Shown here: piece after piece, positions 1 to 64,000 of the stretch
Position numbering within the stretch: the stretch's first letter is position 1
Layout of the letters: each line of letters starts with the position of its first letter
Source of the DNA: Agelaius tricolor
Lineage: Eukaryota > Chordata > Aves > Passeriformes > Icteridae
Assembly: GCA_023055355.1 (NCBI GenBank)
Contig: JALJCS010000038.1
Coordinates: 6,058,821-6,122,820 of the forward strand
DNA: 64,000 nucleotides
Direction of reading: 5' to 3'
The notes under the pieces: model-generated
What the model was told of the DNA's origin: nothing
Seen by the model: the letters and a program-made list of their open reading frames with translations, nothing else
The model's database searches: none
Position numbers and translations under genes: made by a program

Positions 1-44
1 GTAGATTGAGCTATTACCACTTCTGGCCTTCCCTAAACACTTAC

Positions 45-23165: not shown

Positions 23166-23330
23166 AATGCCCTTTCTTTTTCATTCCAACTCTTTTTTCT
23201 GTTTTTCACTCTGTTTTTCAACCCCTTTTTCACTCTCACCCTTTTCCTTTTTCACTTTCTCTCTTTAACTCTCTTTTTTCTCTAACCTTTTCTTTCTTTC
23301 TTTCTTTCTTTTGCTACTTGTATTTCTAAC
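23166..23330. repeat. pyrimidine-rich tract
   Basis: A plus-strand C/T-rich stretch (TTTTTCACTC, CTTTCTTTCTTT) links the CpG island to the duplicated segment that follows. The same arrangement, in expanded form, precedes the second copy near 55.2 kb. Confidence 0.6.
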
Positions 23331-23699: not shown

Positions 23700-23850
23700 A
23701 CAAAAACCTCACCCCCGCTGCGTTGTTGTTTTGGGTTTCCTGTAACAATAAATCAACACGTAATGAAAATAGAAAAAGGTTATCATCTTGTGTTAGTATG
23801 TGTTTTGTGTTGCATTGCTCTCTATTGCTCTCTATTGCAGGGTGAGCACA
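23700..23850 (+). repeat. subtelomeric segment B, copy 1 (AATAAA-containing)
   Basis: The stretch GTTTCCTGTAACAATAAAT followed by GAAAATAGAAAAAGGTT matches 54,050-54,115 almost base for base. It contains an AATAAA. It resembles the tail of a dispersed repeat or LTR, but I cannot name the family. Confidence 0.65.
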
Positions 23851-25344: not shown

Positions 25345-25379
25345 GCAGGTTTGGGCAGCACCAAATAAAATAAAATGCT

Positions 25380-26894: not shown

Positions 26895-28108
26895 GTGCCG
26901 TCAAGCGCGACTGTAGTAAAACTGTCGTAAAAGCTGCCGTAAAGCGCGACTGTCGTAAAAGCTGCCGTAAAGCGCGACTGTCGTAAAAGCTGCCGTAAAG
27001 CGCGACTGTCGTAAAACTGCCGTAAAGCGCGACTGTCGCAAAAGGTGCCGTAAAGCGCGACTGTCGCAAAAGGTGCCGTAAAGCGCGACTGTCGTAAAAG
27101 CTGCCGTAAAGCGTGACTGTCGTAAAGGTGCCGTAAAGCGTGACTGTCGTAAAAGGTGCCGTAAAGCGCGACTGTCGCAAAAGGTGCCGTAAAGCGCGAC
27201 TGTCGTAAAAGCTGCCGTAAAGCGCGACTGTCGTAAAAGGTGCCGTAAAGCGCGACTGTCGTAAAAGGTGCCGTAAAGCGCGACTGTCGTAAAAGCTGCC
27301 GTAAAGCGTGACTGTCGTAAAGGTGCCGTAAAGCGTGACTGTCGTAAAAGGTGCCGTAAAGCGCGACTGTCGCAAAAGGTGCCGTAAAGCGCGACTGTCG
27401 TAAAAGCTGCCGTAAAGCGCGACTGTCGTAAAAGGTGCCGTAAAGCGCGACTGTCGTAAAAGGTGCCGTAAAGCGCGACTGTCGTAAAAGCTGCCGTAAA
27501 GCGCGACTGTCGTAAAAGCTGCCGTAAAGCGCGACTGTCGTAAAAGGTGCCGTAAAGCGCGACTGTCGTAAAAACTGCCGTAAAGCGTGACTGTCGTAAA
27601 ACGTGCCGTAAAGCGCGACTGTCGCAAAAGGTGCCGTAAAGCGCGACTGTCGTAAAAGCGGCCGTAAAGCGCGACTATCGTAAAAGCGGCCGTAAAGCGC
27701 GACTGTCGTAAAAGCGGCCGTAAAGCGCGACTGTCGTAAAAGCGGCCGTAAAGCGCGACTGTCGTAAAAGCGGCCGTAAAGCGCGACTGTCGTAAAAGGT
27801 GCCGTAAAGCGCGACTGTCGTAAAACTGCCGTAAAGCGCGACTGTCGCAAAAGGTGCCGTAAAGCGCGACTGTCGTAAAAGGTGCCGTAAAGCGCGACTG
27901 TCGTAGAAGGTGCCGTAAAGCGCGACTGTCGTAAAACTGCCGTAAAGCGCGACTGTCGCAAAAGGTGCCGTAAAGCGCGACTGTCGTAAAAGGTGCCGTA
28001 AAGCGCCACTGTCGTAAAAGGTGCCGTAAAGCGCCAGTGTCGTAAAACTGCCGTAAAGCGCGACTGTCGTAAAACTGCCGTAAAGCGCGACTGTCGTAAC
28101 AGGTGCAT
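26895..28108. repeat. 28-bp CpG-rich minisatellite, about 43 copies
   Basis: The unit GCCGTAAAGCGCGACTGTCG plus TAAAAGCT or TAAAAGGT repeats with a 28-bp period (GCCGT at 26936, 26964, 26992 and so on; some 25-27-bp variants). Each unit holds two related half-sites (YCGTAAAR) and about four CpGs, so this is a CpG-dense island inside nearly pure A/T sequence. Because 28 is not a multiple of three and the unit has no stops on the minus strand, 273- and 424-codon open frames appear; these are artefacts. Confidence 0.95.
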
Positions 28109-28139: not shown

Positions 28140-29505
28140 TTTTATGGAACTTTTATGGTACTTTACAGCACTTTATGGATTTTATTTTGTTTTTTTATTA
28201 ATTTTTAGTTAATTTTTTTTTAATTTAATTTTTATCTTTTATTTTTAGTTTTAATTTTTCTATTTTTCAAGCTTTTTATTTTATTTTTATCTTTTATTTT
28301 TAGTTTCAATTTTTCTATTTTTCAAGCTTTTTATTTTTTTGTGTTAATTTTCTTTTTTATTTAATTTTTAGTTTTAAGTTTTCTATTTTTAAAGCATTTA
28401 TTTTATTTTTTAAATTTTATTTTTTATTTAATTTTTAGTTTTAATTTTTCTATTTTTAAAGCATTTTATTTTTTTATTTTTATTTTTATCTTAATTTTTG
28501 TTTTGATTTTTTTATTTTTAAAGCATTTTTTTTCTATTTAATTTTTATTTTTGATTTATCTATTTTTAAAGCTTTTTATTTTATTTTTTAATTTTATTTT
28601 TTATTTAATTTTAATTTTTAATTTTTCCATTTTTAAAGCATTTATTTTATTTTTTTAATTTTATTTTTTATTTAATTTTAATTTTTAATTTTTCCATTTT
28701 TAAAGCATTTATTTTATTTTTTTAATTTTATTTTTTATTTAATTTTTAGTTTTCATTTTTTACTTACAAAATATTTATTTTATTTTTTAATTTTATTTTT
28801 TATTTAATTTTAATTTTTAATTTTTCCATTTTTAAAGCATTTATTTAATTTTTTTTTTAATTTAATTTTTAGTTTTCATTTTTTACTTACAAAATATTTA
28901 TTTTATTTTTTTAATTTTATTTTTTATTTCATTTTTATTTTTGCTTTATCTATTTTTAAAGCATTTATTTTATTTTTTTTAATTTTTAGTTTTGATTTTT
29001 TTTATTTTTAAAGCATTTATTTGATTTTTTAAATTTTATTTTTATCTTAATTTTTAGTTTTGATTTTTTTATTTTTAAAGCATTTATTTTATTAATTACT
29101 TTTTATTTACTTTTTATTTTTGAGTTTTCTATTTTTAAAGCTTTTTATTCTATTTTTTAATTTTATTTTTTATTTAATTTTTATTTTTAATTTTTTTATT
29201 TTTAAAGCATTTTTTAATTTTTTTAATTTTATTTTTTATTTCATTTTTAGTTTTAATTTTTCATTTTTAAACTTTTTTTATTTTTTTATTTTTTTATTTC
29301 ATTTTTATTTTTTGCTTTTTCTATTTTTAAAGCATTTCTTTTATTTTTAAATTTTATTTTTTATTTAACTTTTAGTTTTGATTCTTCTATTTTTAAAGCT
29401 TTTTTTTTTAATTGTTACTTTTAATTTTTCTTTTTTTCTCTTTTTCTTTTTTCTTTTTTTTTTCTTTTTTTTTAATTTTTAAAGCTTTTTATTTTATTTT
29501 ATTTG
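28140..29505. repeat. T-rich right arm of the palindrome
   Basis: The reverse-complement counterpart of the left arm, with CTATTTTTAAAGCATTTATT units at intervals. Blocks around 28,600-28,900 are near-identical internal duplications. No gene; hydrophobic Phe-rich open frames here come from T-richness. Confidence 0.85.
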
Positions 29506-43741: not shown

Positions 43742-44806
43742 GTCAGGGCCACGGCCTGGAGATAGGATGATGGGAGAGCAGTGGGTTGGGAGTTCCTGGG
43801 ACAGATTTAAAAATTAGCAGAGGGAAAAGTAATCGTCTCCAAGGGGCCTCTTAGGACAGCTAAAGGGAGAGGTTCTACTTTTGACGGCAGCTTTCAGGCA
43901 GGCAGCGCAGAACAGTTCCGGTCCACGTCGTGTTGTCCGGTGTACCATGTTACCTAGTGTGTCTTTGGGGTCCCTTTTGACTTTTCCCCTCGAGACCCTC
44001 ACCACAAGCATAATGTGTTGTGTTTGTTGTCCCCCTGTTTGTCACGTTCCGTGTCACGGGTGTCCGCACATATTTGTGCCGGAGCTGCTCTGCCCTGCCC
44101 TGCCGCATAGCCTGCTGCAACAGGACAAGTCCCAGGGACTTGCAGTTTGTGGGGTGTTGCCAGACTCTAGATGATATTCCTAGACAGACAGAAGATATTT
44201 GGAGCTGTGAAGTTATCCCACAGCCCTTTGACTTTTGTCCTCACTTTCTTTCAGACGCAGAAGGATAAAATCCAGGGCAAAATCCATCCACCCATCCTGA
44301 GTGAGGAGGTTCCCCCGAGCAGGTCAGTCACTGTTTGTCTCTGCAGGGGGAGTGTAAAGTGTGACTTTGTTACAGCACTGTTCTTTTTCTTTTCAGGAGG
44401 TAAAGCTGGGTATCAGCAGTCAAGATGAGGTGGGCAAGGTGAGCATTGAGTAGCGTCCAGAAGCAGTTGTTATTGCTCCAGTCTCACTTTCCGGTGCAAC
44501 TCTAAGCATCTGTTCCCGTTTCTGCGCTTTAGGCAATCCACTCGGAGTACGCCGAGCCCCAGTCACCAACCGGCCGACGCACCGGGTGCGCCGCTCTCCC
44601 CAGCCCTGCGGAAGAATCACGGGACTCGTTGATGAAGCCTCTGCCTTTTCTATTTAAAGGTGTCACCAGGGTAGCCTTGGGCACGGGCCGAGGAGTCAGG
44701 AGTCACGGTGAGTCAGGGAAGTAGGGAGGAGGAGCTAGGGTCCGCTCAGGTTTCAGCAATGCCACATGACCTCGTCTCCTTTTAACCCAGGCTTACCCCC
44801 GTGACA

Positions 44807-45012
44807 ATGGCATCAGCCTCGGAGCGTGGCCGAAGAGTGCGGCCCCAGGAGCCGGGCATTCTTAGGAGAACGGTGAGTAGCAGAATTGTTGGGTTTTGGT
44901 CAGTTTGCTGCAGAGATCATGCATTGATATTTGAATTTCTTTCATGTAGCTGACTAAGAAACAACAGGGAGTTGTTGAACAACAGTGCCAGCAGGAACTT
45001 CCCAGATGTTGA
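44807..45012 (+). CDS. candidate small two-exon ORF in the second unit (speculative)
   Basis: An ATG at 44807 inside an exon-like block (acceptor AACCCAG at 44790) reads MASASERGRRVRPQEPGILR to a GTGAGT donor at 44873. It joins in phase 0 to 44950-45012 (TTCATGTAG acceptor), reading LTKKQQGVVEQQCQQELPRC and a TGA. 42 codons. The next copies carry ACG in place of this ATG but keep the frame SER...RSVRP and the splice sites. Function unknown. Confidence 0.25.
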
Positions 45013-48000
45013 GGCTGCCTTCTTTTGCACCTGACATGGATAGGCATCCCCAGATGTCCGAGAGATAAGTAGAGGGCTACAACCCACAGAGGGGATGAAA
45101 GCGGGGCACAGGGTAGGGACCCACCGGGAGGGGTTTTTGAGTCTTCTTTGGAGATGGGGGTGTCCATGAAGCGGACACCTTAGGCCCCATAAAAGGAAAG
45201 CCTGACTTTTGATCACAGTGCTGAGGCACGCAGGGCAGAGCAGTCCCGGTGTGTATCGTGTCATTTGTCTTTTGTGTATTATGTGTTGTTTGCATATGTC
45301 ATGTCTTTTACCTTAGGCCTTGGTGGGGCCTGTCAGAAACCCTGGCATCATTGTTAGCATCTGTGATCTCTGCATTCCTTGGCCTGGCACCCATGCCATA
45401 GAACTTTTGACTCGGGAGCTCAGACAGGCATCAGACTCTCTTGTGTCTTTAGAAGCATCCGGTCAGCTGTCTTTTCAGGTCTTGTTCTGAGCTGTATGGA
45501 CAGCTATGTCCCGCCAGGATCCATTATGGCGGACTAGGACTCGAAAGAACATGAGGGCAGGTAGAGGCTTCTGGCTGTATGATTCTTGGGCATCCATCTT
45601 TGCAGTTCTTGGAATAAATCATTCGGTTAGCATCTTTTTCCTCCAGGTTTCTCTGAGCCTCATCAGCTCACCGTCGGTCTCACCTCGGTCATCTCCTTTT
45701 GCATCTTCTCAGTCCTCGCAGCCATTTTCCTTGCCAGGAGATTTCTGTCCGTGTCGTGTTCCCGTTGTTTGTCACGTCCTGTCCCGTGTCACGGGTGTCT
45801 GCACACATTTGTGCCGGAGCTGCTCTGCCCTGCCGCATAGCCTGGTGCAATAGGAGAAGTCCCGGGGACTTGAAGTTTGTAATGCGGGGTGTGGTTGGAC
45901 TCTAGATGGACACAAGATATCTGGAGCTCTTAAGTTATCCTGCAACAGTTTGACTCTTGTCCTAACTTTTTTTTCAGATTCAGATGGATTAAATCTGTGC
46001 CAGAGGGCCCCATCCCGGGTGAGTAGTTTCCCCCGAGCAGGTGAGGCACCATTTGTCTCTGCAACAGAAGTGTATGTGGTGACTCTGTTACAGCTCTGTT
46101 CTTTGTCTTTCTTTTTAGGAACTAAGTCTGGATACCAGCAGTCAAGGTGAGCAGTGGAGAGAAGTAGCTGTTATTGCTCCAGTCTCAGTTTCTGGTGCTG
46201 CTCTAAGCTTCCATTCTCTTTTTTGTGCCTTAGGCAATCCACTCGGAGCCTGCCAAGCCCCTGTCACCAGCCGGCCGATGCACCGGGTTCCCCGCACGTG
46301 TGAGCCCTGTGGATGCATTACAGGACCTGGTGATGAAACCCTGAACTCTTCTATTTAAAGGTGCCATCCAGGTGGCCTTCAGCAGCTGCCGAGGAGTTGC
46401 GGTGAGTAGGGGAAGTAGGGAGGAGGAGCCAGGTTCCACTCAGGCTTCAGCCATGCCAAATCACCTCCTCTCCTCTTAACCCAGGCACCCCCTGTGACGA
46501 CAGCCTCGGTCTCCGAGCGTGCCCGAAGCGTGCGGCCCGAGCAGCTGAGCATTCTTAGGAGCAGGGTGAGTAGCAGACTTGTGGGGTTTTGGCCGATGGG
46601 CTGCCAAGATCGGGCACTGATGTTTGGTTTTTTTTAATACAGCTGTCTAAGAGACACCAGCCCGGTGCCAGCAGGACCTTCCCAGCTGATGAAGTGGCCT
46701 TTCTTCGCACCGGAGACCGGCATCCCCAGATGTCCGAGAGATAAGTAGAGGGCCACGACCCACAGAGGGAATGAAAGCAGGGTGCTGGTTTGGGAATCAC
46801 TGGGAGGGGTTTTTGAGTCCGCTTTGGAGGTGGGGGGTGTCCATGAAGCGGCCCCTTAGGCCCCATAAAAGGAAAGCCTGACTTTTCATCACAGTGCTGA
46901 GGTATGCAGGGCAGAGCAGTCCCGGTGTGTATCGTGTCACTTGTCTTTTGTGTATTATGTGTTGTTTGCATATGTCATGTCTTTTACCTTAGGCCTTGGT
47001 GGGGCCTGTCAGAAACCCTGGCATCATTGTTAGCATCTGCGATCTCTGCATTCCTTGGCCTGGCACCCATGCCATAGAACTTTTGACTCGGGAGCTCAGA
47101 CAGGCATCAGACTCTCTTGTGTCTTTAGAAGCATCCGGTCAGCTGTCTTTTCAGGTCTTGTTCTGAGCTGTATGGACAGCTATGTCCCGCCAGGATCCAT
47201 TAAGGCAGACTTGGACTTGAAAGAACATGAGGGCAGGTAGAGGCTTCTGGCTGTAGGATTCTCGGGCATCCATTTTTTCAGTTCTTGGAATAAATCATTC
47301 AGTTAGCATCTTCTTCCTTCAGTGTTTTCTGAGCCTCGTCAGCTTGCCATCGGTCTCACCTCGGTCATCTCATTTGGCATCTTCTCAGTCCTTGCAGTCA
47401 TCCTTCTTGCCCAGAGATTTCTGTCTGTGTTGTGTGCCCATTGTTTGTCGTGTCCTGTCTGTCCCGTGTCACGGGTGTCTGCACACATTTGTGCCGGAGC
47501 TGCTCTGCCCTGCCACATAGCCTGGTGTAATAGGAGAAGCCCCGGGGAGTTGAAGGTTGTAATGTGGGCTCTACTTGGACTCTAGATGCTATTCCTATAT
47601 TGACCTAAGGTGTTTGTAGCTTTTGAGTTATCGTGCAGGTGTTTGACATATGTTCTAACTTTCTTTCAGGTGCAGATGCATTGCATCCATGGCAGAGCCC
47701 CCCATCCTGGGTGAGGGGGTTGCCACAAGCAGGTCAGTCACCATTTGTCTGTGCAGGGGGAGTGTCAAGTGTGACCCTATTACAGCGCTGTTTTTTGTCT
47801 TTATTTTTAGGAAGTATAGCTGGATCCCAGCAGTCAAGTTCAAGAGAGCAAGGTGAGCAGTAGCCTTTCTTGTTGCTGAGGTCTGAATTCTAAGGGGGCA
47901 AGTCTAAGTCTCCATTCTCATTTTTGTGCCTTAGGCAATCCACTCGGAGCACGCCAAGCTCCCGTCCCCACCCGGCCGACGGACCGAATTTTCCACCCTG

Positions 48001-48475
48001 ATGAGCCCCGTCTTCCGGGTAGCAGTCAGGAACCACCGAGGAGTTGCGGTGAGTCAGGGAAGTAGGGAGGAGGACCGAGGGTCCAGTCAGTTTTCAGCAA
48101 TGCCACATCACCTCCTGTCTTCTTAACCCAGGCGTACCCCACGACGACGGCGTTGGCCTCCGAGCGTTCCCGAAGCGTGCGACCGGAGGAGCCGGGCCTT
48201 CTTAGGAGAAGGGTGAGTAGCAGACTTGTGGGGTTTTGGCCAATGAGCTGCCAAGATCAGGCACTGATGTTTGGTTTTCTTTAATATAGCTGTCTAAGAG
48301 ACACCAGCCCGGTGCCAGCAGCAACTTCCCAGCCGGCGAGGCGGCCTTTCTTCGCACCCGACACAGACCGGCATCCCCAGATGTCCGAGAGATAAGTAGA
48401 AGGCTCCGACCCACAGAGGGGATGAAAGCAAGGTGCTGGGTTGGGACTCCTGGGATCGGGGAGGGGAGGTCTTGA
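48001..48475 (+). CDS. candidate three-exon ORF in the fourth unit (speculative)
   Basis: An ATG at 48001 lies in the exon-like block 47935-48048, which is open over all its 38 codons. It continues in phase 0 into 48132-48212 (27 codons, with ASERSRSVRPEEPGLL) and 48290-48475 (61 codons, with LSKRHQPGAS and SPDVREISRRLRP, then TGA). 104 codons from the ATG, basic and Ser/Pro/Arg-rich, no recognised domain. The same blocks in neighbouring copies carry stops or shifts, so this is either the best-preserved coding copy or a chance open chain. Confidence 0.3.
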
Positions 48476-50155
48476 GTTGGCTCTGGAGATGAGAGTAGCC
48501 AAGAATTGGCCCCTTAGGCCCCCTAAAAGCAAAATCTCACTTTGGATCACAGTGCTGAGGTGCACAGGGCAGAGCAGTCCCGGTGTGTATCGTGTCACTT
48601 GTCTACCGTGCATTATGTCTTGTTTGGGTGTCTCATGTCTTTTATCTTAGCCCTTTGAGGGGCCTATCAGAAACCTCGGCAATATTCTTAGCAGCCACGA
48701 TCTCCACGTTTCTTTGGCCTGGCACCCAGGCCATAAAACTTTTGACTCGGGAGCTCAGACAGGCATCAGAATTGCAACTCTTTGTAAGCATCCAGTCAGA
48801 TGTCTTTTCAGGTCTTGTTCTGAGCTGTATGGACAGCTGCACCCTGCAAGGTTCTATTATGGTGGATTAGGACTTGTAAGAATGTGAGGGCAGGTAGAGG
48901 CTTCTGACCGTAGGGCTCCTGTGCATTCATCTATGCAGTTCTTGGACTAAAACATTCAGTTTAGCATCTTCCTTCTCCAGGGCACTCTGAGCCTTATCAG
49001 CTCGCCATCGGTCTGTCTTACCTCGGTCATCTCATTTGGCATCTTCTCAGTCCTCGCAGTCATCCTTCTTGCCTAGAGATTTCTGTCCGTGTCTTGCGCC
49101 CATTGTTTGTCGCGTCCCGTCTGTCCCGTGTCACGGGTGTCAGCACACGCATTTGTGCCGGAGCTGCTCTGCCCTGCCGCATAGCCTGGTGTAATAGGAG
49201 AAGCCCCGGGGAGTTGAAAGTTGTAATGTGGGCTGTACTTGGACTCTAGATGGTATTCCTAGGTTGACATAAGGTGTTTGCAGCTTTTGAGTTATCGTGC
49301 ATGTGTTTGACATATGTTCTACCTTTCTTTCAGGTGCAGATGAATTACATCTGTGGCAGAGGGTTAGGGTTACGAGGTGCCAGGCCTTCTTAGGAGAACG
49401 GTGAGTAGCAGACTTGTGTGGTTTTGGCCGATGTGGTGCCAAGGTCAGGCGTTGATGTTTGTTTGGTTTTCTTTAATATAGCTGTCTAAGTGACAACAGC
49501 CCGGTGACAGCACAACTTCCCAGCCGGCGAGGCGGCCTTTCTTCGCACCCGACACGGACCGGCATCCCCAGATGTCCGAGAGATAAGTAGAGGGCTCCGA
49601 CCCACAGAGGGGATGAAAGCGAGGTGCTGGGTCGGCACTCCTGGGATGGGGGAGGTTTTGAGTTGGCTCTGGAGACGAGGGTAGCCAAGAAGTGGTCCCT
49701 TAGGCCCCCTAAAAGCAAAATCTCACTTTCGATCACCGTGCTGAGGTGAGCAGGGCAGAGCAGTCCCGGTGTGTATTGTGTCACTTGTCTGTTGTGCATT
49801 ATGTCTTGTTTAGCTGTCTCATGTCTTTTATCTTAGCCCTTTGAGGGGCCTACCAGAAACCTTGGCACCAGTCTTAGCATCTGTGCTCTCAGCGTTCCTT
49901 GGCCTGGCACCCATGCCATAGAACTTTTGACTCAGGAGCTCAGACTCTCATCTCTTTTTATAAGCATCCAGTCAGCTGTTTTTTCAGGTCTTGTTCTGAG
50001 CTGTATGGACAGCTATGTCCCGCCAGGATCCATTATGGCGGACTAGGACTTGAAAGAATGTGAGGGCAGGTAGAGGCTTCTGGCCGTAGGATTCTCGGGC
50101 ATCCATCTTTGCAGTTCTTGGAATAAATCATTCAGTTAGCATCTTTTTCCTCCAG

Positions 50156-52876
50156 GGTTCTCTGAGCCTCATCAGCCCACCATCAGTTTCACCTCGGTCA
50201 TCTCCTTTTGCATTCTCTCAGTCCTCACAGCCATTTTCCTTGCCAGGAGCTTTCTGTCCGTGTCGCGTCCCCGTCGTCTGTCACGTCCCGTCACGGGTGT
50301 CAGCACACACATTTGTGCCGGAGCTGCTCTGCCCTGCCGCGTAGCCCGGTGCAATAGGAGAAGTCCCAGGGACTTGAAGTTTGTAATGTGGGGTGTAGTT
50401 GGACTCTAGATGGGATTTGTAGATGGACACAAGATATCTGGAGCTCTTAAGTTATCCTGCAACAGTTTGACTCTTGTCCTAACCTTTTTTCAGATTCAGA
50501 TGGATTAAATCCGTGCCAGAGGGCCCCATCCCGGGTGAGGGGATTCCCCCAAGCAGGTGAGGCACTACTTGTTTCTGTAGAGGAAGCATAATTGGTGGCT
50601 GTTACAGCATTGTTCTTTGTCTCTCTTTTTAGGAAGTTAAAGCCGAGAGCAGCAGTCAAGGCCAAGTGGGCGAGGTGAGCATTGACTAGCGTACAGAAGC
50701 AATTGTTATTGCTGAGGTCTCAGTTTCTGGTGCAGCTTTAAGCATCTCTTTTTTTTTTTTTTTATTTTAGGTGGTCCGCTTGCAATCTATCCTAGCCGAG
50801 CATATCCGTGCCAGGTGGGTGCGAGCTTAAGGTATCGGTGTGGCATATTTGTCAGATTTGGGAGGTTGTGTTTTCACAGTATCTCAGCATGCTTTTCTGC
50901 TTTGTTACTTTGCAGGTGCTGTTGCTTCCCTAGGTACGCCAAGGAACAGAGGAGGGCAGGTGAGTCGGCGTTTAGGCAGGCTGACTCATAGGTGAATGTT
51001 ATGCAGCAGCATGCTAAGCATGTACCTTTTCTCTTTGCAGGTATCTTCTGGCCAGCCTCCGGAGTCAAATCAAGATTTGAGGTGAGCCGGGGCAGTGGTG
51101 CGGAGGAGTCCCGGGGATTACTGTTGTTGAGGGCAATAGTGACCTTTTCTGTTTTGTCTTAGGTACCCTGAGGAGGCTCTTACCCAAAGCTTAGAAACGG
51201 CAACACCGAAGCACACGCGGAGAACATAGCAACGTCCACGTGCGACCGAGGATGGATTTTGTCCGCTCCTCTTCCAAAAGCTAAGTGTCGGTGCCAGCGG
51301 TTGGGAGAAGGGGAAAAACCTTTACTATCACAGGGGGCAATTTCACGTCAGCTTAGCGGAGAGGTCTGTAGCGGGACAGGCTCTCTGGAAGTAAAGGGAG
51401 AGGGTTTCTCCTCAGCCTCACCAGAGCCTTTGCCGGGCAGGGCAGTTCCAACCCATCTCCACGTTCTCGGGAACTTTGCGTCGTCCGCCTTCCTCGACTC
51501 GACGTCGTCACGGATCTTTCCCCCGAGGAGCTCGCCTTCAGGTCCGGAGCTACGGCCACGGTCACCCGGCAGTTGGCTTCCTTCTCTAGGCTCGCCGAGC
51601 CTCTCGAGCATCCTCTTAACTGCTTCGGCACTAACTTCTTTTAATGAGTTATGTTTCATCATCACGTGCCATCATCATAGGGCTTTCTTTCCTTTGGCAT
51701 CATCGGCCTCTGGCTCATCTTGCGCTACGAATCTTGGGTCCATAAGTTGAAAGTGCTAGGCAGTTTACTCGTGTCTCTGTTATGCCATCCGTGTCTATGT
51801 TGTGTCGTCCGTGTTATGTAGTCTGTGTCTATTGTCTTCCGTGTCATAGGCCTTTGTTACATCTTGACGCTTTACAGGCACTATTTTGTGCCATATAGGC
51901 AGTATTTTACTCACATTCCTTCCCAGATATAGCTTATTCTGGCATCTTTACATTTTTACTCTTTGAGACAGGAAAGGATTACAAGATTTTCTCATCCATC
52001 TTCCTTCTCACTACCAGCTTTGGTAGTGCTTTTTTTTCCATGCCATTCTCTTGGACTTCTAGAGGGAGCGTCTTACACCCTCCTCAAGTGACTGCAGTTG
52101 TTCTGTAGGTTCCATCTTCTCAAAGGGTATGGGGCCCAACAATTAATCTTCCACAGAGTTATCTCAAGTCTTGGCTTATATTGCGTGTACCTATGTTGGC
52201 TTGTATTGTGTGTAGCTATATTGCATGTACCTTTGTTGGCTTATATTGTATAGGCTTATATTGTATATACTTATATTGCGTGTACCTGTGTTGGCTTGTA
52301 TTGTGTGTACCTATATTGCATGTACCTTTGTTGGCTTATATTGTATAGGCTTATATTGTATATACTTATATTGCGTGTACCTGTGTTGGCTTGTATTGTG
52401 TGTACCTATATTGCATGTACCTTTGTTGGCTTATATTGTATAGGCTTATATTGCGTGTACCTGTGTTGGCTTATATTGTATAGGCTTATATTGTATAGGC
52501 TTATATTGCGTGTACCTGTGTCGGCTTATATTGTGTCTACTTACACTGTATGTACACTTGCACTGTATGCGTTTGCTTATATTGTATGTACTTATAATAT
52601 ACCACTTATGATTGGAGCTGCCCTGCCCTGGCATGTAGTCATAGTTAGGTAGAACAGTTGTAGAAACTTTACTGTTCATCTGTCTTTTATGGCATATTGG
52701 GTAGAAAATTTATTGGTCCAGAGTGGGGAAAATTCCTAGCTGTCAGCCACAAGTTGACCAATTCCTGTCGTCTCACAGGTCCTCGAGGCTACCGATTTCC
52801 CCAGAATCTACCATTCGACGTCAAGGAGCGGCAGCCAGAAGATGTGTCGAAGCACGTTCTTCAGCGTCTCGAGTAA
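50156..52876 (+). CDS. candidate membrane-anchored protein, terminal exons of the array (speculative, unrecognised)
   Basis: A phase-matched chain: 50156-50296, 50494-50534, 50633-50674, 50771-50814, 50916-50959, then either 52779-52876 (TAA) or 51041-51081 plus 51163-51171 (TGA). All joints are AG/GT. The first exon reads FSEPHQPTISFTSVISF with a hydrophobic run of about 21 residues to FLA, then basic RSFLSVSRPRRLSRP, as in a transmembrane anchor followed by a cytoplasmic stop-transfer. The tail includes EVKAESSSQGQVGE, VVRLQSILAEHIRA, YAKEQRRAG and, in the first alternative, LPFDVKERQPEDVSKHVLQR. That gives 135 or 119 codons without a stop. An AATAAA follows at 53047. The 5' coding exons are not identified: the first exon needs a phase-1 donor upstream. 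No family recognised; a spliced lncRNA is the main alternative. Confidence 0.4.
51172..51760. other. CpG-containing block open on both strands, not recognised
   Basis: A plus-strand frame of 163 codons (51,259-51,750) is Ser/Pro-rich; minus-strand frames of 92 and 105 codons are charged. None resembles a known protein. It lies in the long final intron or 3' UTR of the candidate gene. Overlapping frames on both strands argue for composition rather than coding. Confidence 0.35.
51761..52170. other. no gene; short GTGTCTATGTTGTGTCGTCC-like repeats
   Basis: Contains loose repeats of CCGTGTCTATGTTGTG near 51,775-51,850 and otherwise unremarkable sequence. Nothing else seen. Confidence 0.4.
52186..52590 (+). 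repeat. 95-bp higher-order minisatellite built of ~16-bp TATTGTRTR units
   Basis: TTGTATTGTGTGTA recurs at 52201, 52296 and 52391 (95-bp period). Inside each unit are shorter sub-repeats of GGCTTATATTGTATA and TATTGCGTGTACCTGTG. Open plus-strand frames rich in Y, L, C and I come from the repeat. Confidence 0.9.
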
Positions 52877-53004
52877 GGGCCATAGCGAGCCTGTAAGCAG
52901 GAAGAGCGTGTGAGCGTGTGTGAGAGCACATGACTGTGTGTGTCTGTGTCCACTCGTCTCTGTGTGTGTGAGCACATGCTGACTAGTTTTAACCTTGTGT
53001 ATGT

Positions 53005-54044: not shown

Positions 54045-54130
54045 GCTTTTGTTGTTTTGGGTTTCCTGTAACAATAAATCAACATCTAATGAAAATAGAA
54101 AAAGGTTGTTGCTTTGTGTTAATATGTGTA
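54045..54130 (+). repeat. subtelomeric segment B, copy 2
   Basis: GTTTCCTGTAACAATAAAT followed by GAAAATAGAAAAAGGTT matches 23,738-23,783. Here segment B comes before segment A, the reverse of their order near 23.5 kb. Confidence 0.7.
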
Positions 54131-54179
54131 TTGCTCTGTATTGCATTTGCCTTACCTGCTGCATTTTGCTGTGCTGCTC

Positions 54180-54380
54180 TGTATTGCTGCTCTGTATTTG
54201 CATTAACTGCTTCATTTTGCTGTATTGCTCTATATGTAAATTAGACTTTGACCAGTGTGTCTATGCATTGTATCTGCACTTGCACTTGTATACACTGTTT
54301 CCATGTATTTTGCTGATGTATAAATAAAAGCATTCTTTCAATAAAGTTGAGTCACCCTTAATAAAGATACCCCCTGCCCT
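54180..54380 (+). terminator. cluster of AATAAA poly(A)-type signals
   Basis: ATAAATAAAAGC, TCAATAAAGTTG and TTAATAAAGATACC occur within about 40 bp near 54,318-54,370 on the plus strand. Such a cluster could end plus-strand transcription from the tandem array, or may be LTR-derived. Confidence 0.4.
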
Positions 54381-54539: not shown

Positions 54540-55200
54540 AGTCTTCTTGCTTCTTTTTCTCTCAGTGTTCTCCTTTTCCTTGGTTTGTGTTTTTTTGCTC
54601 TTAGTCTTTTCCTTTTTCACCCCACTCCTAGGTTTTCACTTTCACTCTAATCCTAACCACTTTCCTTTCCCTCTAACTCCTGTCCTTCTTCAGTTCTCCC
54701 ACCCTCCTTTTCCTGTCTCACTCTGTCTTCCTGTTTTATTTTCTTCTGTCTTTTCCTCTCTGTCTCCTCCCTCTGTCTGTTCTCTCCTCCTCTCTTCTTT
54801 CTCTTTGTCCCTGTTCTCTCCTCTTCTCTCTGTCTTTTCTCCTCTCCCTCTATTTTTTCCAACTCTTTGCTTCTCTCTCTTTTCTCTTTGCTTCTCTCTC
54901 TTCTCTCTCTCTCCTCCTTCCCCCCCCTCCTTCTCTTTTCTCTCTCTCTCTCCTTCTCTTTTCTCTCTCTCTCTCCTTCTCTTTTCTCTCTCTCTCTCCT
55001 TCTCTTTTCTCTCTCTCTCTCCTTCTCTTTTCTCTCTCTCTCTCCTTCTCTTTTCTCTCTCTCTCTCCTTCTCTTTTCTCTCTCTCTCTCCTTCTCTTTT
55101 CTCTCTCTCTCTCCTTCTCTTTTCTCTCTCTCTCTCTCCTTCTCCTTCTCTTTTCTCTCTCTCTCCTTCTCTCTCCCTCTCCTTCTCTCTCCTTCCTTGT
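54540..55200 (+). repeat. pyrimidine tract with ~23-bp (CT)nCCTTCTCTTTT array
   Basis: Plus-strand C/T-only sequence; 54,925-55,150 is a regular array of TCTCTCTCTCCTTCTCTTTT with a period of about 23 bp. Polypurine/polypyrimidine mirror sequence of this kind can form triplex (H-)DNA. The 234-codon Ser/Leu/Phe frame is an artefact. Confidence 0.9.
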
Positions 55201-55204
55201 CTTT

Positions 55205-55445
55205 CTAACTTTGTTTTCCTTTCTAGCTTTAGTTTAAAAAAGCAGCACTAGAAACTTTCAGGCTCCCTGGGAGTAAAAAAAAAAAAAAAAAAAAAAAAAA
55301 TTTAAAAAAACAAACCATTTACTCCCTGGGAGCCTGAAATTTCCTACTGCTGCACCAGACATATAGTTTTTCTTCTTTTTACTATATACACTGTATATAG
55401 GGACCCCTCCCACCACAGGTGCCAGTAATCAGTAGCCATCAGCCA
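55205..55445. repeat. subtelomeric segment A, copy 2, with hairpin
   Basis: Homologous to 23,325-23,570. The inverted repeat is better preserved here: arms about 55,242-55,277 and 55,318-55,353 pair over about 36 bp (including TTTCAGGCTCCC / GGGAGCCTGAAA) around a poly-A loop. Confidence 0.8.
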
Positions 55446-55505: not shown

Positions 55506-55583
55506 GGCCGCCCCCCTCGCCAGACCCACCCCCTGCAAGCCAGCACCCCACCCCATGCCATTTACATATAGATCATGCAGCCA

Positions 55584-55815
55584 CAGCGCCACCTGCCGTC
55601 TGCAACCGGGTACTACATGCACAGCGCCACCTGGTGCCTGCCGGCCGGTACTACATACACAGCGCCACCTGCTGCTTGCCGGCCGGTACTGCATGCACAG
55701 CGCCACCTGCTGCTTGCCGGCCGGTACTGCATGCACAGCGCCACCTGCCGTCTGCCGGCCGGTACTGCATGCACAGCGCCCCCTGCCGCTTACCCCGCAA
55801 TACTGCACCCGCGGC
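55584..55815 (+). repeat. 38-bp minisatellite, six copies
   Basis: CAGCGCCACCTGC starts at 55584, 55622, 55660, 55698, 55736 and 55774. Units contain GCCGGCCGGTACTGCATGCA. Frames without stops result from the repeat. Confidence 0.95.
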
Positions 55816-56045
55816 GCGCCCCCAATGACGTCACCAGCGCGACACGCCCCAGAAAGGACCCCAGTGCGCAGGCGTCCCCCCCAATCGCCCGACCGAAACG
55901 GCGCCGCCCACCCCGCACCCCCCAGACCCCCGCGCGCGCCGCCGCCGGCCCCACGCAAACCGGAACGCCATTCCGGCCCCAGCTGACCCGCAAAAACCGC
56001 ACAAAACTCGCCCAAAACCCCGAAAAAAACCCCGGTCCCGGCGGC
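55816..56045. other. GC-rich spacer with one CRE, before the YY1 array
   Basis: Very CpG-rich sequence with CAATGACGTCACC near 55,824, leading directly into the motif array. It may form one CpG island with the array. No gene recognised. Confidence 0.6.
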
Positions 56046-58020
56046 CGCCATTTTGCCGTAAATGACGTCACCCGGCCCGCCGCCATCTTGCCCCCCGTAC
56101 CACGTGACCCCCCCTCGCGGCCGCCATCTTGCCCCCCCCGCACCACGTGACCCCCCGCGGCCGCCATTTTGCTGCCGTAAATGACGTCACCCCCCGCGGC
56201 CGCCATATTGCCGTAAATGACGTCACAGAGCACTCGCCGCCATCTTGTCTCCCGGGTCACGTGATCCCCGGCGGCCGCCATCTTGGTCGCCAATCACGTG
56301 ACCGACTGGCGGCCGCCATCTTGGCTGCCATACCACGTGACCCTGTGGGCGCCGCCATGTTGTACGACACCACGTGACCCCATGGGCGCCGCCATCTTGA
56401 TGACATCACAGGGTCCGCCATCTTGGTCCCCATCACGTGACCACATGGAGGCGGCCATCTTGGTTCCCGGATCACATGACCCCCTGGGCGCCGCCATATT
56501 GGACGCCACAACGTGACCGTATGGGCGCCGCCATCTTGATGAGTCATTACGACGTCACGACGGCCGCCATCTTGGTCCCCGATCACGTGACCGCCTGCCC
56601 GCCGCCATCTTGCTGCCGTAAATGACGTCACCCCTACAGCCGCCACCTTGCCATAAATGACGTCACCGGCCGCCATCTTGCCTGCCGTACCACGTGACCC
56701 CCCTCGCGGCCGCCATCTTGCTGCCGTAAATGACATCACCCCCTACAGCCGCCTCCTTGCCGTAAAGGACGTCCCCGGCCACCATCTTGCCGTAAATGAC
56801 GTCACAGAGCACTCGCCGTCATCCCGGCTGTCGAGTCACGTGACCCCCGGTCGACGCCATCTTGGTCACCAGTCACGTGACCCCCTGGAGGCCGCCATCT
56901 TGTTGCCGTAAATGACGTAACCCCCCCGCGGCCGCCATTTTGCCGCAAATGACGTCACCCGGCCCGCCGCCATCTTGCCCCCCCCCACACCACGTGACCC
57001 CCCGCGGCCGCCATTTTGCTGCCGTAAATGACGTCACCCCGTACGGCCGCCATCTTGACCGCCTACGGCCGCCATCTTGCCGTAAATGACATCACCGGCC
57101 GCCATCTTGCCTGCCCTACCACGTGACCCACCCCGCGGCCGCCATTTTGTTGCCGTAAATGACGTCACCCCGCACAGCCGCCATATTGCCGTAAATGACG
57201 TCACCCCGCACGGCCGCCATCTTGTCTCTCGGGTCACGTGATCCCCGGCGGCCGCCATCTTGGTCGCCAATCACGTCACCGACTGGCGGCCGCCATCTTG
57301 GCTGCCGTACCACGTGACCCTCTGGGCGCCGCCATGTTGTACGACACCACGTGACGCCATGGGCGCCGCCATCTTGGATGACATCACAGAGCCGCCATCT
57401 TGCCTCCCCGGTCACGTGACCGCCGCCATCTTGATCCCCGGTCACATGACCCCATGGGCGCCGCCATTTTGGACACCACCACGTGACCGTATGGGCGCCG
57501 CCATCTTGACGCGTCATCACGACGTCACGGCGGCCGCCATCTTGGTCCCCGATCACGTGACCGCCTGGCCGCCGCCATCTTGTTGCCGTAAATGACGTCA
57601 CCCCCACGGCCGCCATCTTGCCGTAAATGACGTCACCGGCCGCCATCTCGGCTGCCGTACCACGTGACCCCCTGGGCGCCGCCATGTTGATGACATCACA
57701 AGGTCCGCCATCTTGGTCCCCATCACGTGACCGCATGGGGGCGGCCATCTTGGTGCCGTAAATGACGTCACCCCCTACAGCCACCACGTTGCCGTAAATG
57801 ACGTCACCGGCCGCCATCTTGCCGTAAATGACGTCACAGAGCACTCGCCGTCATCTTGTCTCTCGAGTCACGTGACCCCCCGGTCGCCGCCATCTTGGTC
57901 ACCAGTCACGTGACCGCCGCCATCTTGATCCCTAGTCACATGACCCCATGGGGGCCGCCATATTGGTTCCATACCACGTGACCATATGGGGGCCGCCATC
58001 TTGATGACTCACCATGACGT
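56046..58020. promoter_or_regulatory. telomere-abutting array of YY1, CRE and E-box motifs
   Basis: By eye I count about 50 intact copies of CCGCCATNTTG (reverse complement of the YY1 consensus AANATGGCGG), all in the same orientation, plus about six decayed ones. Between them lie many TGACGTCA palindromes (CREB/ATF), usually as GTAAATGACGTCACC, and many CACGTGACC E-boxes (USF/MITF-TFE type), usually with TCACGTGA or CCACGTGA context. Modules of about 35-50 bp alternate a YY1 site with either a CRE or an E-box. An internal duplication of about 990 bp is visible (56.24 versus 57.23 kb). Each motif contains or neighbours CpG, so it is a CpG island next to the telomere. A role in telomeric or subtelomeric transcription is inference. 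Confidence 0.9.
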
Positions 58021-58026
58021 CACCGC

Positions 58027-58092
58027 GGGTTAGGGTTAGGGTTTAGGGTTTAGGGTTTAGGGTTTAGGGTTTAGGGTTTAGGGTTTAGGGTT
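58027..58092 (+). repeat. proximal telomere with seven TTTAGGG variant repeats
   Basis: After two TTAGGG units, TTTAGGG occurs seven times in a row (58042-58090), then canonical TTAGGG begins. Variant repeats at the base of a telomere are known in other vertebrates; the exact 7-mer block here is directly visible. Confidence 0.95.
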
Positions 58093-61000
58093 AGGGTTAG
58101 GGTTAGGGTTAGGGTTAGGGTTAGGGTTAGGGTTAGGGTTAGGGTTAGGGTTAGGGTTAGGGTTAGGGTTAGGGTTAGGGTTAGGGTTAGGGTTAGGGTT
58201 AGGGTTAGGGTTAGGGTTAGGGTTAGGGTTAGGGTTAGGGTTAGGGTTAGGGTTAGGGTTAGGGTTAGGGTTAGGGTTAGGGTTAGGGTTAGGGTTAGGG
58301 TTAGGGTTAGGGTTAGGGTTAGGGTTAGGGTTAGGGTTAGGGTTAGGGTTAGGGTTAGGGTTAGGGTTAGGGTTAGGGTTAGGGTTAGGGTTAGGGTTAG
58401 GGTTAGGGTTAGGGTTAGGGTTAGGGTTAGGGTTAGGGTTAGGGTTAGGGTTAGGGTTAGGGTTAGGGTTAGGGTTAGGGTTAGGGTTAGGGTTAGGGTT
58501 AGGGTTAGGGTTAGGGTTAGGGTTAGGGTTAGGGTTAGGGTTAGGGTTAGGGTTAGGGTTAGGGTTAGGGTTAGGGTTAGGGTTAGGGTTAGGGTTAGGG
58601 TTAGGGTTAGGGTTAGGGTTAGGGTTAGGGTTAGGGTTAGGGTTAGGGTTAGGGTTAGGGTTAGGGTTAGGGTTAGGGTTAGGGTTAGGGTTAGGGTTAG
58701 GGTTAGGGTTAGGGTTAGGGTTAGGGTTAGGGTTAGGGTTAGGGTTAGGGTTAGGGTTAGGGTTAGGGTTAGGGTTAGGGTTAGGGTTAGGGTTAGGGTT
58801 AGGGTTAGGGTTAGGGTTAGGGTTAGGGTTAGGGTTAGGGTTAGGGTTAGGGTTAGGGTTAGGGTTAGGGTTAGGGTTAGGGTTAGGGTTAGGGTTAGGG
58901 TTAGGGTTAGGGTTAGGGTTAGGGTTAGGGTTAGGGTTAGGGTTAGGGTTAGGGTTAGGGTTAGGGTTAGGGTTAGGGTTAGGGTTAGGGTTAGGGTTAG
59001 GGTTAGGGTTAGGGTTAGGGTTAGGGTTAGGGTTAGGGTTAGGGTTAGGGTTAGGGTTAGGGTTAGGGTTAGGGTTAGGGTTAGGGTTAGGGTTAGGGTT
59101 AGGGTTAGGGTTAGGGTTAGGGTTAGGGTTAGGGTTAGGGTTAGGGTTAGGGTTAGGGTTAGGGTTAGGGTTAGGGTTAGGGTTAGGGTTAGGGTTAGGG
59201 TTAGGGTTAGGGTTAGGGTTAGGGTTAGGGTTAGGGTTAGGGTTAGGGTTAGGGTTAGGGTTAGGGTTAGGGTTAGGGTTAGGGTTAGGGTTAGGGTTAG
59301 GGTTAGGGTTAGGGTTAGGGTTAGGGTTAGGGTTAGGGTTAGGGTTAGGGTTAGGGTTAGGGTTAGGGTTAGGGTTAGGGTTAGGGTTAGGGTTAGGGTT
59401 AGGGTTAGGGTTAGGGTTAGGGTTAGGGTTAGGGTTAGGGTTAGGGTTAGGGTTAGGGTTAGGGTTAGGGTTAGGGTTAGGGTTAGGGTTAGGGTTAGGG
59501 TTAGGGTTAGGGTTAGGGTTAGGGTTAGGGTTAGGGTTAGGGTTAGGGTTAGGGTTAGGGTTAGGGTTAGGGTTAGGGTTAGGGTTAGGGTTAGGGTTAG
59601 GGTTAGGGTTAGGGTTAGGGTTAGGGTTAGGGTTAGGGTTAGGGTTAGGGTTAGGGTTAGGGTTAGGGTTAGGGTTAGGGTTAGGGTTAGGGTTAGGGTT
59701 AGGGTTAGGGTTAGGGTTAGGGTTAGGGTTAGGGTTAGGGTTAGGGTTAGGGTTAGGGTTAGGGTTAGGGTTAGGGTTAGGGTTAGGGTTAGGGTTAGGG
59801 TTAGGGTTAGGGTTAGGGTTAGGGTTAGGGTTAGGGTTAGGGTTAGGGTTAGGGTTAGGGTTAGGGTTAGGGTTAGGGTTAGGGTTAGGGTTAGGGTTAG
59901 GGTTAGGGTTAGGGTTAGGGTTAGGGTTAGGGTTAGGGTTAGGGTTAGGGTTAGGGTTAGGGTTAGGGTTAGGGTTAGGGTTAGGGTTAGGGTTAGGGTT
60001 AGGGTTAGGGTTAGGGTTAGGGTTAGGGTTAGGGTTAGGGTTAGGGTTAGGGTTAGGGTTAGGGTTAGGGTTAGGGTTAGGGTTAGGGTTAGGGTTAGGG
60101 TTAGGGTTAGGGTTAGGGTTAGGGTTAGGGTTAGGGTTAGGGTTAGGGTTAGGGTTAGGGTTAGGGTTAGGGTTAGGGTTAGGGTTAGGGTTAGGGTTAG
60201 GGTTAGGGTTAGGGTTAGGGTTAGGGTTAGGGTTAGGGTTAGGGTTAGGGTTAGGGTTAGGGTTAGGGTTAGGGTTAGGGTTAGGGTTAGGGTTAGGGTT
60301 AGGGTTAGGGTTAGGGTTAGGGTTAGGGTTAGGGTTAGGGTTAGGGTTAGGGTTAGGGTTAGGGTTAGGGTTAGGGTTAGGGTTAGGGTTAGGGTTAGGG
60401 TTAGGGTTAGGGTTAGGGTTAGGGTTAGGGTTAGGGTTAGGGTTAGGGTTAGGGTTAGGGTTAGGGTTAGGGTTAGGGTTAGGGTTAGGGTTAGGGTTAG
60501 GGTTAGGGTTAGGGTTAGGGTTAGGGTTAGGGTTAGGGTTAGGGTTAGGGTTAGGGTTAGGGTTAGGGTTAGGGTTAGGGTTAGGGTTAGGGTTAGGGTT
60601 AGGGTTAGGGTTAGGGTTAGGGTTAGGGTTAGGGTTAGGGTTAGGGTTAGGGTTAGGGTTAGGGTTAGGGTTAGGGTTAGGGTTAGGGTTAGGGTTAGGG
60701 TTAGGGTTAGGGTTAGGGTTAGGGTTAGGGTTAGGGTTAGGGTTAGGGTTAGGGTTAGGGTTAGGGTTAGGGTTAGGGTTAGGGTTAGGGTTAGGGTTAG
60801 GGTTAGGGTTAGGGTTAGGGTTAGGGTTAGGGTTAGGGTTAGGGTTAGGGTTAGGGTTAGGGTTAGGGTTAGGGTTAGGGTTAGGGTTAGGGTTAGGGTT
60901 AGGGTTAGGGTTAGGGTTAGGGTTAGGGTTAGGGTTAGGGTTAGGGTTAGGGTTAGGGTTAGGGTTAGGGTTAGGGTTAGGGTTAGGGTTAGGGTTAGGG

Positions 61001-64000
61001 TTAGGGTTAGGGTTAGGGTTAGGGTTAGGGTTAGGGTTAGGGTTAGGGTTAGGGTTAGGGTTAGGGTTAGGGTTAGGGTTAGGGTTAGGGTTAGGGTTAG
61101 GGTTAGGGTTAGGGTTAGGGTTAGGGTTAGGGTTAGGGTTAGGGTTAGGGTTAGGGTTAGGGTTAGGGTTAGGGTTAGGGTTAGGGTTAGGGTTAGGGTT
61201 AGGGTTAGGGTTAGGGTTAGGGTTAGGGTTAGGGTTAGGGTTAGGGTTAGGGTTAGGGTTAGGGTTAGGGTTAGGGTTAGGGTTAGGGTTAGGGTTAGGG
61301 TTAGGGTTAGGGTTAGGGTTAGGGTTAGGGTTAGGGTTAGGGTTAGGGTTAGGGTTAGGGTTAGGGTTAGGGTTAGGGTTAGGGTTAGGGTTAGGGTTAG
61401 GGTTAGGGTTAGGGTTAGGGTTAGGGTTAGGGTTAGGGTTAGGGTTAGGGTTAGGGTTAGGGTTAGGGTTAGGGTTAGGGTTAGGGTTAGGGTTAGGGTT
61501 AGGGTTAGGGTTAGGGTTAGGGTTAGGGTTAGGGTTAGGGTTAGGGTTAGGGTTAGGGTTAGGGTTAGGGTTAGGGTTAGGGTTAGGGTTAGGGTTAGGG
61601 TTAGGGTTAGGGTTAGGGTTAGGGTTAGGGTTAGGGTTAGGGTTAGGGTTAGGGTTAGGGTTAGGGTTAGGGTTAGGGTTAGGGTTAGGGTTAGGGTTAG
61701 GGTTAGGGTTAGGGTTAGGGTTAGGGTTAGGGTTAGGGTTAGGGTTAGGGTTAGGGTTAGGGTTAGGGTTAGGGTTAGGGTTAGGGTTAGGGTTAGGGTT
61801 AGGGTTAGGGTTAGGGTTAGGGTTAGGGTTAGGGTTAGGGTTAGGGTTAGGGTTAGGGTTAGGGTTAGGGTTAGGGTTAGGGTTAGGGTTAGGGTTAGGG
61901 TTAGGGTTAGGGTTAGGGTTAGGGAGGTTAGGGTTAGGGTTAGGGTTAGGGTTAGGGTTAGGGTTAGGGTTAGGGTTAGGGTTAGGGTTAGGGTTAGGGT
62001 TAGGGTTAGGGTTAGGGTTAGGGTTAGGGTTAGGGTTAGGGTTAGGGTTAGGGTTAGGGTTAGGGTTAGGGTTAGGGTTAGGGTTAGGGTTAGGGTTAGG
62101 GTTAGGGTTAGGGTTAGGGTTAGGGTTAGGGTTAGGGTTAGGGTTAGGGTTAGGGTTAGGGTTAGGGTTAGGGTTAGGGTTAGGGTTAGGGTTAGGGTTA
62201 GGGTTAGGGTTAGGGTTAGGGTTAGGGTTAGGGTTAGGGTTAGGGTTAGGGTTAGGGTTAGGGTTAGGGTTAGGGTTAGGGTTAGGGTTAGGGTTAGGGT
62301 TAGGGTTAGGGTTAGGGTTAGGGTTAGGGTTAGGGTTAGGGTTAGGGTTAGGGTTAGGGTTAGGGTTAGGGTTAGGGTTAGGGTTAGGGTTAGGGTTAGG
62401 GTTAGGGTTAGGGTTAGGGTTAGGGTTAGGGTTAGGGTTAGGGTTAGGGTTAGGGTTAGGGTTAGGGTTAGGGTTAGGGTTAGGGTTAGGGTTAGGGTTA
62501 GGGTTAGGGTTAGGGTTAGGGTTAGGGTTAGGGTTAGGGTTAGGGTTAGGGTTAGGGTTAGGGTTAGGGTTAGGGTTAGGGTTAGGGTTAGGGTTAGGGT
62601 TAGGGTTAGGGTTAGGGTTAGGGTTAGGGTTAGGGTTAGGGTTAGGGTTAGGGTTAGGGTTAGGGTTAGGGTTAGGGTTAGGGTTAGGGTTAGGGTTAGG
62701 GTTAGGGTTAGGGTTAGGGTTAGGGTTAGGGTTAGGGTTAGGGTTAGGGTTAGGGTTAGGGTTAGGGTTAGGGTTAGGGTTAGGGTTAGGGTTAGGGTTA
62801 GGGTTAGGGTTAGGGTTAGGGTTAGGGTTAGGGTTAGGGTTAGGGTTAGGGTTAGGGTTAGGGTTAGGGTTAGGGTTAGGGTTAGGGTTAGGGTTAGGGT
62901 TAGGGTTAGGGTTAGGGTTAGGGTTAGGGTTAGGGTTAGGGTTAGGGTTAGGGTTAGGGTTAGGGTTAGGGTTAGGGTTAGGGTTAGGGTTAGGGTTAGG
63001 GTTAGGGTTAGGGTTAGGGTTAGGGTTAGGGTTAGGGTTAGGGTTAGGGTTAGGGTTAGGGTTAGGGTTAGGGTTAGGGTTAGGGTTAGGGTTAGGGTTA
63101 GGGTTAGGGTTAGGGTTAGGGTTAGGGTTAGGGTTAGGGTTAGGGTTAGGGTTAGGGTTAGGGTTAGGGTTAGGGTTAGGGTTAGGGTTAGGGTTAGGGT
63201 TAGGGTTAGGGTTAGGGTTAGGGTTAGGGTTAGGGTTAGGTTAGGGTTAGGGTTAGGGTTAGGGTTAGGGTTAGGGTTAGGGTTAGGGTTAGGGTTAGGG
63301 TTAGGGTTAGGGTTAGGGTTAGGGTTAGGGGTTAGGGTTAGGGTTAGGGTTAGGGTTAGGGTTAGGGTTAGGGTTAGGGTTAGGGTTAGGGTTAGGGTTA
63401 GGGTTAGGGTTAGGGTTAGGGTTAGGGTTAGGGTTAGGGTTAGGGTTAGGGTTAGGGTTAGGGTTAGGGTTAGGGTTAGGGTTAGGGTTAGGGTTAGGGT
63501 TAGGGTTAGGGTTAGGGTTAGGGTTAGGGTTAGGGTTAGGGTTAGGGTTAGGGTTAGGGTTAGGGTTAGGGTTAGGGTTAGGGTTAGGGTTAGGGTTAGG
63601 GTTAGGGTTAGGGTTAGGGTTAGGGTTAGGGTTAGGGTTAGGGTTAGGGTTAGGGTTAGGGTTAGGGTTAGGGTTAGGGTTAGGGTTAGGGTTAGGGTTA
63701 GGGTTAGGGTTAGGGTTAGGGTTAGGGTTAGGGTTAGGGTTAGGGTTAGGGTTAGGGTTAGGGTTAGGGTTAGGGTTAGGGTTAGGGTTAGGGTTAGGGT
63801 TAGGGTTAGGGTTAGGGTTAGGGTTAGGGTTAGGGTTAGGGTTAGGGTTAGGGTTAGGGTTAGGGTTAGGGTTAGGGTTAGGGTTAGGGTTAGGGTGGTA
63901 GGGTTAGGGTTAGGGTTAGGGTTAGGGTTAGGGTTAGGGTTAGGGTTAGGAGTTAGGGACTTAGGGTTAGGGTAGGGTTAGGGTTAGGTTAGGGTTAGGG
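58027..64000 (+). repeat. telomere, (TTAGGG)n, about 5.97 kb
   Basis: Nearly uninterrupted TTAGGG on the plus strand to the end of the window, the G-rich orientation of a right chromosome end. Rare interruptions include AGGGAGGTTAGGG (about 61,924), a TTAGG deletion (about 63,240), TTAGGGGTTAGGG (about 63,330) and several in the last 110 bp. The terminal cluster may be sequencing noise. Confidence 0.99.

Follow-up and report, generated by a model that had tools for sequence, protein, structure and literature searches.

A tandem array of YY1, CRE and E-box sites joined to the telomere at many chromosome ends of Agelaius tricolor, a candidate promoter and boundary

What drives TERRA or other chromosome-end RNA outside mammals is, to our knowledge, poorly known. 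In humans, the Type I TERRA promoters are CpG-rich tandem repeats of 61, 29 and 37 bp that lie beside the telomere at many chromosome ends (PMC12242772; PMC6600276), and their 61-bp repeat is described as enriched in CTCF and their 37-bp repeat as carrying both CAGE signal and H3K4me3, with the telomere next (PMC12242772). The human 29-bp repeat carries NRF1, which is important at these promoters, and CTCF-driven TERRA is reported to support telomere replication (PMC5727389). YY1, CREB and USF are missing from the list of TERRA regulators given in PMC12242772. Tandem YY1 sites are described elsewhere: in the 5'UTR of mouse L1 Tf, tandem promoter monomers each need a YY1 site and act synergistically (PMC11602158), and the Peg3 imprinting control region holds a CpG-rich tandem YY1 array linked to methylation and insulation (PMC4361396). 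Among avian sequences, PO41 of chicken and quail is a short subtelomeric tandem repeat of 41 bp that is transcribed from both strands (PMC4301066); the listings of our literature search surfaced no avian telomere-adjacent promoter, only this transcription of PO41.

Here, we analyzed a stretch of 64,000 nucleotides (the window) that corresponds to C38:6058821-6122820 of the A. tricolor assembly; contig C38 is 6122820 bases long, so the telomere at the right of the window runs to the contig end. The locus is laid out as in humans, in the order CTCF repeat, CpG island, repeat and telomere, but is built from different factors. It differs from mouse L1 Tf, a mobile element with longer monomers and few of them per element, in lying at a chromosome end and in having neither CRE/E-box-free monomers nor an element body. 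The Peg3 YY1 cluster, in turn, is intronic and has no telomere link. That cluster has far fewer YY1 sites than the array described here, although both are tandem YY1 arrays in CpG-rich sequence. Read from its motifs, the array is the right half of a larger module that comprises CTCF-like repeats, a CpG island, the array itself and the telomere, with the following features (window positions):

55074 to 55439, + strand: left flank of the module, a pyrimidine-rich tract and a hairpin (36-nt arms, 55242-55277 and 55318-55353), within the terminal block common to other ends
55582 to 55809, - strand for the canonical motif: six 38-bp CTCF-like repeats with the + strand core AGCGCCMYCTRSTGS, all six in the same orientation
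55790 to 56045, no strand: CpG island between the CTCF-like repeats and the array, observed/expected CpG 1.31
55826 to 55833, no strand: CRE (TGACGTCA) in the island; 15 of 17 ends have TGACGTCA in their island
55865 to 55874, + strand: NRF1-like TGCGCAGGCG in the island; only 2 of 17 ends have this motif there, and the module does not conserve it
55960 to 55965, + strand: ETS-like CCGGAA in the island; 12 of 17 ends have CCGGAA in their island
56046 to 58022, + strand: YY1/CRE/E-box array; its 55 units, degenerate copies included, are spaced at a median of 38 bp
57995 to 58029, + strand: junction unit GCCATCTTGATGACTCACCATGACGTCACCGCGGG, common to other chromosome ends
58030 to 64000, + strand: terminal telomere, TTAGGG, to the contig end at window base 64000

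Every unit of the array opens with a YY1-type site, GCCGCCATNTTG, and an E-box or a CRE then comes in nearly all of them (E-box in 29, CRE in 25, neither in one). The core CCGCCATNTTG is found 45 times on the + strand and never on the - strand between positions 56040 and 58025, and is absent from the rest of the window; for the shorter core GCCATNTTG the same interval holds 48 forward and no reverse copies, with one reverse match elsewhere in the window. When the array was shuffled 500 times by dinucleotide, CCGCCATNTTG arose 0.02 times on average and at most once, against 44 observed in the shuffled slice, and the exact cores TGACGTCA and CACGTGAC, present 16 and 22 times, had shuffle means of 0.06 and 0.14. 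The three kinds of motif occupy approximately 54% of the array bases, which repeat with a period of 38 bp; superimposed on this is a higher-order duplication of 56046-56942 and 57009-57965, which are 79% identical. The observed/expected CpG ratio is 1.12 in the array vs 0.34 in window bases 1-20000. An earlier note on this DNA had claimed approximately 50 YY1 copies in one orientation, ending within about 10 bp of the first TTAGGG. The copy number stands (55 YY1-type units, 48 with the exact core), as does the distance: the last CRE (58015-58022) is followed by 7 bp, CCGCGGG, and then by TTAGGG from 58030. The single orientation holds for YY1 and fails for CRE and E-box, which have no real orientation because their cores are palindromes. 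The six CTCF-like sites just upstream and the CpG island between those and the array had been overlooked.

We scanned the bird's own assembly (1.157 Gb, 214 contigs) with a YY1-CRE pair pattern and obtained 161 matches, 102 forward and 59 reverse, against none for a reversed-pattern control. Positions are known for 100 of the 161, down to contig C38; among the 100 matches listed, 99 lie near a contig end, the farthest approximately 13 kb in, on the + strand at right contig ends and on the - strand at left ends, and the lone internal match is at C36:1.79 Mb. The junction unit, searched for in turn, matched 18 times, each less than 12 kb from a contig end, adding arrays at C69, C70, C102, C127 and C145. 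The array is thereby placed at at least 22 contig ends on at least 21 contigs, and its orientation relative to the telomere never varies among them, an outcome that agrees with the earlier note's proposed test of presence at many chromosome ends. For the complementary view, the first and last 300 bases were read of the 20 of the 35 contigs C1-C35 without a listed match. A telomere tract is absent from 39 of these 40 ends (one of the 39 reads N), and at the remaining end, which has such a tract, the adjoining stretch reads N; a readable telomere junction lacking the array was not seen among those 40 ends. On these counts, the module is a real genome-wide feature of chromosome ends.

Seventeen ends, the window among them, were read in detail, 12 with the telomere in view. 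They hold 409 YY1 cores in the forward and none in the reverse orientation, and the observed/expected CpG ratio of their arrays ranges from 0.94 to 1.18 except at C34 (0.48). The islands of 16 ends could be aligned with a mean pairwise identity of 87.2% (range 71-97%), and the window shares flanking sequence with all 16 other ends in pieces that are 73-92% identical. With islands and flanks alike across ends, the module evidently moves from end to end as a terminal block. The junction CC[GA]CGGG-T(2-4)AGGG is common to 11 of the 12 ends with the telomere in view, and a script placed the last exact motif 7 bp from TTAGGG at 9 of the 12. That some contigs stop inside the array or run into N is what an assembly artefact or contamination might produce, but at least 22 ends with differing copy numbers, a mean island divergence of 13% and one common junction leave this explanation with next to no probability. 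As separate observations on the telomeric side, seven TTTAGGG variants lie just past the junction in the window (58040-58090) and thirteen TTTTAGGG variant repeats at the right end of C10 (L009), and pure TTAGGG starts the telomere at most other ends.

The same exchange bears on a different reading, in which breaks within an unmethylated CpG-rich block serve crossovers or exchange among chromosome ends. Exchange of the block between ends is clear, the arrays are mosaics of higher-order copies, and zebra finch crossovers are reported to be enriched at CpG islands, birds being without PRDM9 (PMC12047795). Such a recombination patch leaves unexplained why the YY1, CRE and E-box letters are retained and why they point one way, and we regard it as improbable.

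Retention of these letters was quantified by pooling 422 units from the 17 ends in a minimum spanning tree from which pairs below 70% identity were dropped. Differences amount to 93/7511 in motif columns vs 426/7590 in spacers, an approximately 4.5 times lower rate of change in the motifs, and 200 rotations of the motif mask gave a mean of 259 and a minimum of 228 where the real mask gives 93. The corresponding Fisher value of 7e-53 is not to be taken literally, as tree edges are not fully independent, and it is the rotation control that carries the argument. Within the window, the main duplicated pair shows 5/237 motif vs 29/262 spacer differences, with 1 of 498 rotations as low; three shorter window pairs show the same trend or no trend, and none is significant by itself. 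Across the pooled YY1 block the bases are 95-100% fixed except for the N of GCCATNTTG (71% C), which we take to be the degenerate position of YY1 itself. Exactly one partner site is present in 371 of the 422 units, with none in 27, two E-box-like sites in 22 and one of each in 2. Since motif columns are far less variable than spacers, the sites are under selection, and the earlier suggestion of a selected array is supported both in the window and across the 17 ends. The number of exact YY1 cores varies from 3 to 48 per end (17 ends, 5 of them cut off or with the telomere not in view), and at C34 left (L024) and C145 (L041) the telomere begins within a YY1 unit, which would fit broken arrays that telomerase has healed. 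Both features would suit a neutral subtelomeric satellite that derives from a promoter fragment and has spread by exchange between ends; set against the deficit of change in the motif columns, to which no mask rotation comes close, such an origin is very improbable. The non-CpG spacer divergence of the duplicated pair is 17/191, which at the rate given for zebra finch, 2.0e-9 per bp per year (PMC12047795), would make the duplication approximately 20 million years old, a figure that is only indicative and presumes that this rate applies and that there was no gene conversion.

The repeats to the left of the island are called CTCF-like by their match to the CTCF consensus: with up to two mismatches allowed, the window has eight matches where 1.34 are expected by chance, and six of the eight are in the repeats. 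By the convergence rule, cohesin is stopped according to the orientation of the CTCF motif, and the putative - strand sites would stop cohesin coming from the chromosome interior. A stricter core pattern finds 4-10 copies at 15 of the 17 ends, with the last copy 271-277 bp before the array at all 15; C15 left and C34 have none by this pattern; a looser one finds a single copy at C15 left. No reverse-oriented core is present within 1200 bp before the array at any of the 17 ends. The role for YY1 or for a boundary that the earlier note had raised gains support from this adjoining array. The repeats also invite a reading in which the module is first a barrier or insulator and transcription is incidental, with the CTCF repeats and the E-box/YY1 array blocking the inward spread of telomeric heterochromatin and with YY1-YY1 and CTCF contacts perhaps clustering the chromosome ends. 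CTCF is paired with USF in the chicken beta-globin insulator, the repeats are uniformly oriented at the 15 ends, and the CpG island of the last gene lies approximately 35 kb inside the telomere. However, 55 YY1 sites with E-box and CRE partners resemble a promoter more than a minimal barrier, and constraint holds for the YY1/CRE/E-box array and is not established for the CTCF core, where mismatches are 35/1410 vs 115/2162 but a count as low comes from 9 of 38 rotations, in repeat units that were picked by part of that core. We therefore consider a barrier with incidental transcription rather unlikely.

The reading that we favor, with some confidence, is a CpG-island promoter combined with a CTCF boundary, situated at the chromosome end, copied among ends and with its sites kept by selection; more broadly, the block probably helps to run or to insulate the chromosome end. 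YY1, CREB/ATF-type and USF/MAX-type factors would occupy the array and, as they bind best at unmethylated CpGs, could keep the last 2-3 kb open and unmethylated. The dense YY1 sites may then recruit RNA polymerase II at many start sites, giving a CpG-island promoter with telomere-ward RNA (TERRA), inward RNA or both, the sequence record leaning toward inward RNA in the germline. The CTCF repeats, which all face the chromosome interior, would stop cohesin and set the open patch apart from that interior.

The orientation of the YY1 sites allows both directions of transcription. In human promoters, YY1 in the CGCCATNTT orientation at the start site acts as an initiator and is the rarer placement (PMC1088961), whereas YY1 in the reverse orientation within +1 to +25 is the commoner one (PMC1088961; PMC11269187 for the downstream preference). 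On the array, the initiator-type placement predicts RNA toward the telomere, and the reverse downstream placement predicts RNA away from it. A second line of evidence comes from substitutions. On the + strand of the 255-bp island at 15 ends, G-to-A changes are found in 30/56 columns and C-to-T in 15/127, and decay among 41 CpG columns has yielded CpA in 26 and TpG in 6 (27 vs 6 of 46 in another count); the array tree has the same asymmetry (77 vs 42). Such an imbalance corresponds to C-to-T on the - strand, the strand exposed when RNA leaves the telomere, and it gives a hint of germline transcription leaving the telomere and, at the same strength, a hint against a promoter that is purely TERRA-ward in the germline. 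The asymmetry changes sign approximately 2 kb inward, left of about -2000; the pyrimidine tract between the island and this reversal is uninterpretable for decay. A bidirectional promoter centered in the array was considered and set aside, as the telomere-ward flip that it predicts is absent (CA:TG by array thirds 33:11, 22:17 and 22:14; in complete arrays 17:4, 17:8 and 19:5). Rightward replication exposing the lagging-strand template was also set aside, on the reasoning that it predicts C-to-T on the + strand, opposite to what is seen in island and array, although the strand bias could alternatively stem from replication polarity. A role of the array as a TERRA promoter is plausible. Farther left, a short + strand open frame lies behind a splice-acceptor-like stretch at 52740-52880, with AATAAA signals pointing telomere-ward downstream at 54300-54370, features of a possible rightward subtelomeric transcript.

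Compared with the human Type I TERRA promoters, the module likewise has tandem repeats directly at the telomere of at least 22 ends, CpG enrichment in both island and array, and, by motif only, CTCF sites on the centromere side with further repeats telomere-ward (15 of 17 ends), an arrangement that PMC12242772 describes for the human repeats. The units differ by description, with 38-bp CTCF-like repeats and YY1/CRE/E-box units in place of the 61-29-37 organization, and NRF1 is not conserved: the window has a good match, but the strict pattern is found in only 2 of 17 islands, and NRF1 was dropped as a core element. The module is thus probably functionally similar to a human Type I TERRA promoter and probably of independent origin rather than a member of that class. 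YY1 has been reported to bind both RNA and DNA. A more specific version, which we put forward tentatively and with some doubt, is that the cassette was independently built in a vertebrate lineage from housekeeping-promoter motifs and is maintained at its chromosome ends generally, that its selected germline product is mainly the inward RNA, TERRA being the divergent arm, and that YY1 tethers the inward RNA at chromosome ends. In any case, the assembly offers a defined module that sits exactly where subtelomere meets telomere at many ends and whose predicted sites are under measurable constraint, so that chromosome-end transcription and insulation become a testable question for one cassette in many natural variants.

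Searches for relatives returned no match of the array DNA patterns in the viral contig and genome contig collections, no relative at E 0.01 or better for proteins read from array and island (7048 and 3467 candidates), no CR1-type 3' repeat, no Rfam family at gathering thresholds and no tRNA. Elsewhere in the window, exons on the - strand at 1822-8767 have weak CNH and Rap-GAP matches, below the curated Pfam cut-offs; their order fits what we take to be a GARNL3-like gene, which is probably the last before the telomere. A search with an exon piece from this region (1822-2058, - strand) returned 47 relatives, the best at 98% over 72% of the query, in a JGI contig. The CpG island of this last gene lies at approximately 22.4-23.2 kb. 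The left flank of the module (55074-55439) has a second copy at 23203-23554 (75.5% identity), and 23723-23818 is repeated at 54049-54144 (86%); these repeats of sequence from the side of the last gene's CpG island, next to the array, suggest an older chromosome end or a block duplication. A 28-bp satellite (42.6 copies) is flanked by A-rich and T-rich arrays that look reverse-complementary (25363-26851, 26921-28106 and 28191-29504). A fragment on the - strand at 34856-35080 matches the retroviral aspartyl protease family (Pfam RVP), and several direct copies of a repeat of approximately 1.2-1.7 kb, 74-85% identical, occupy 44021-50759.
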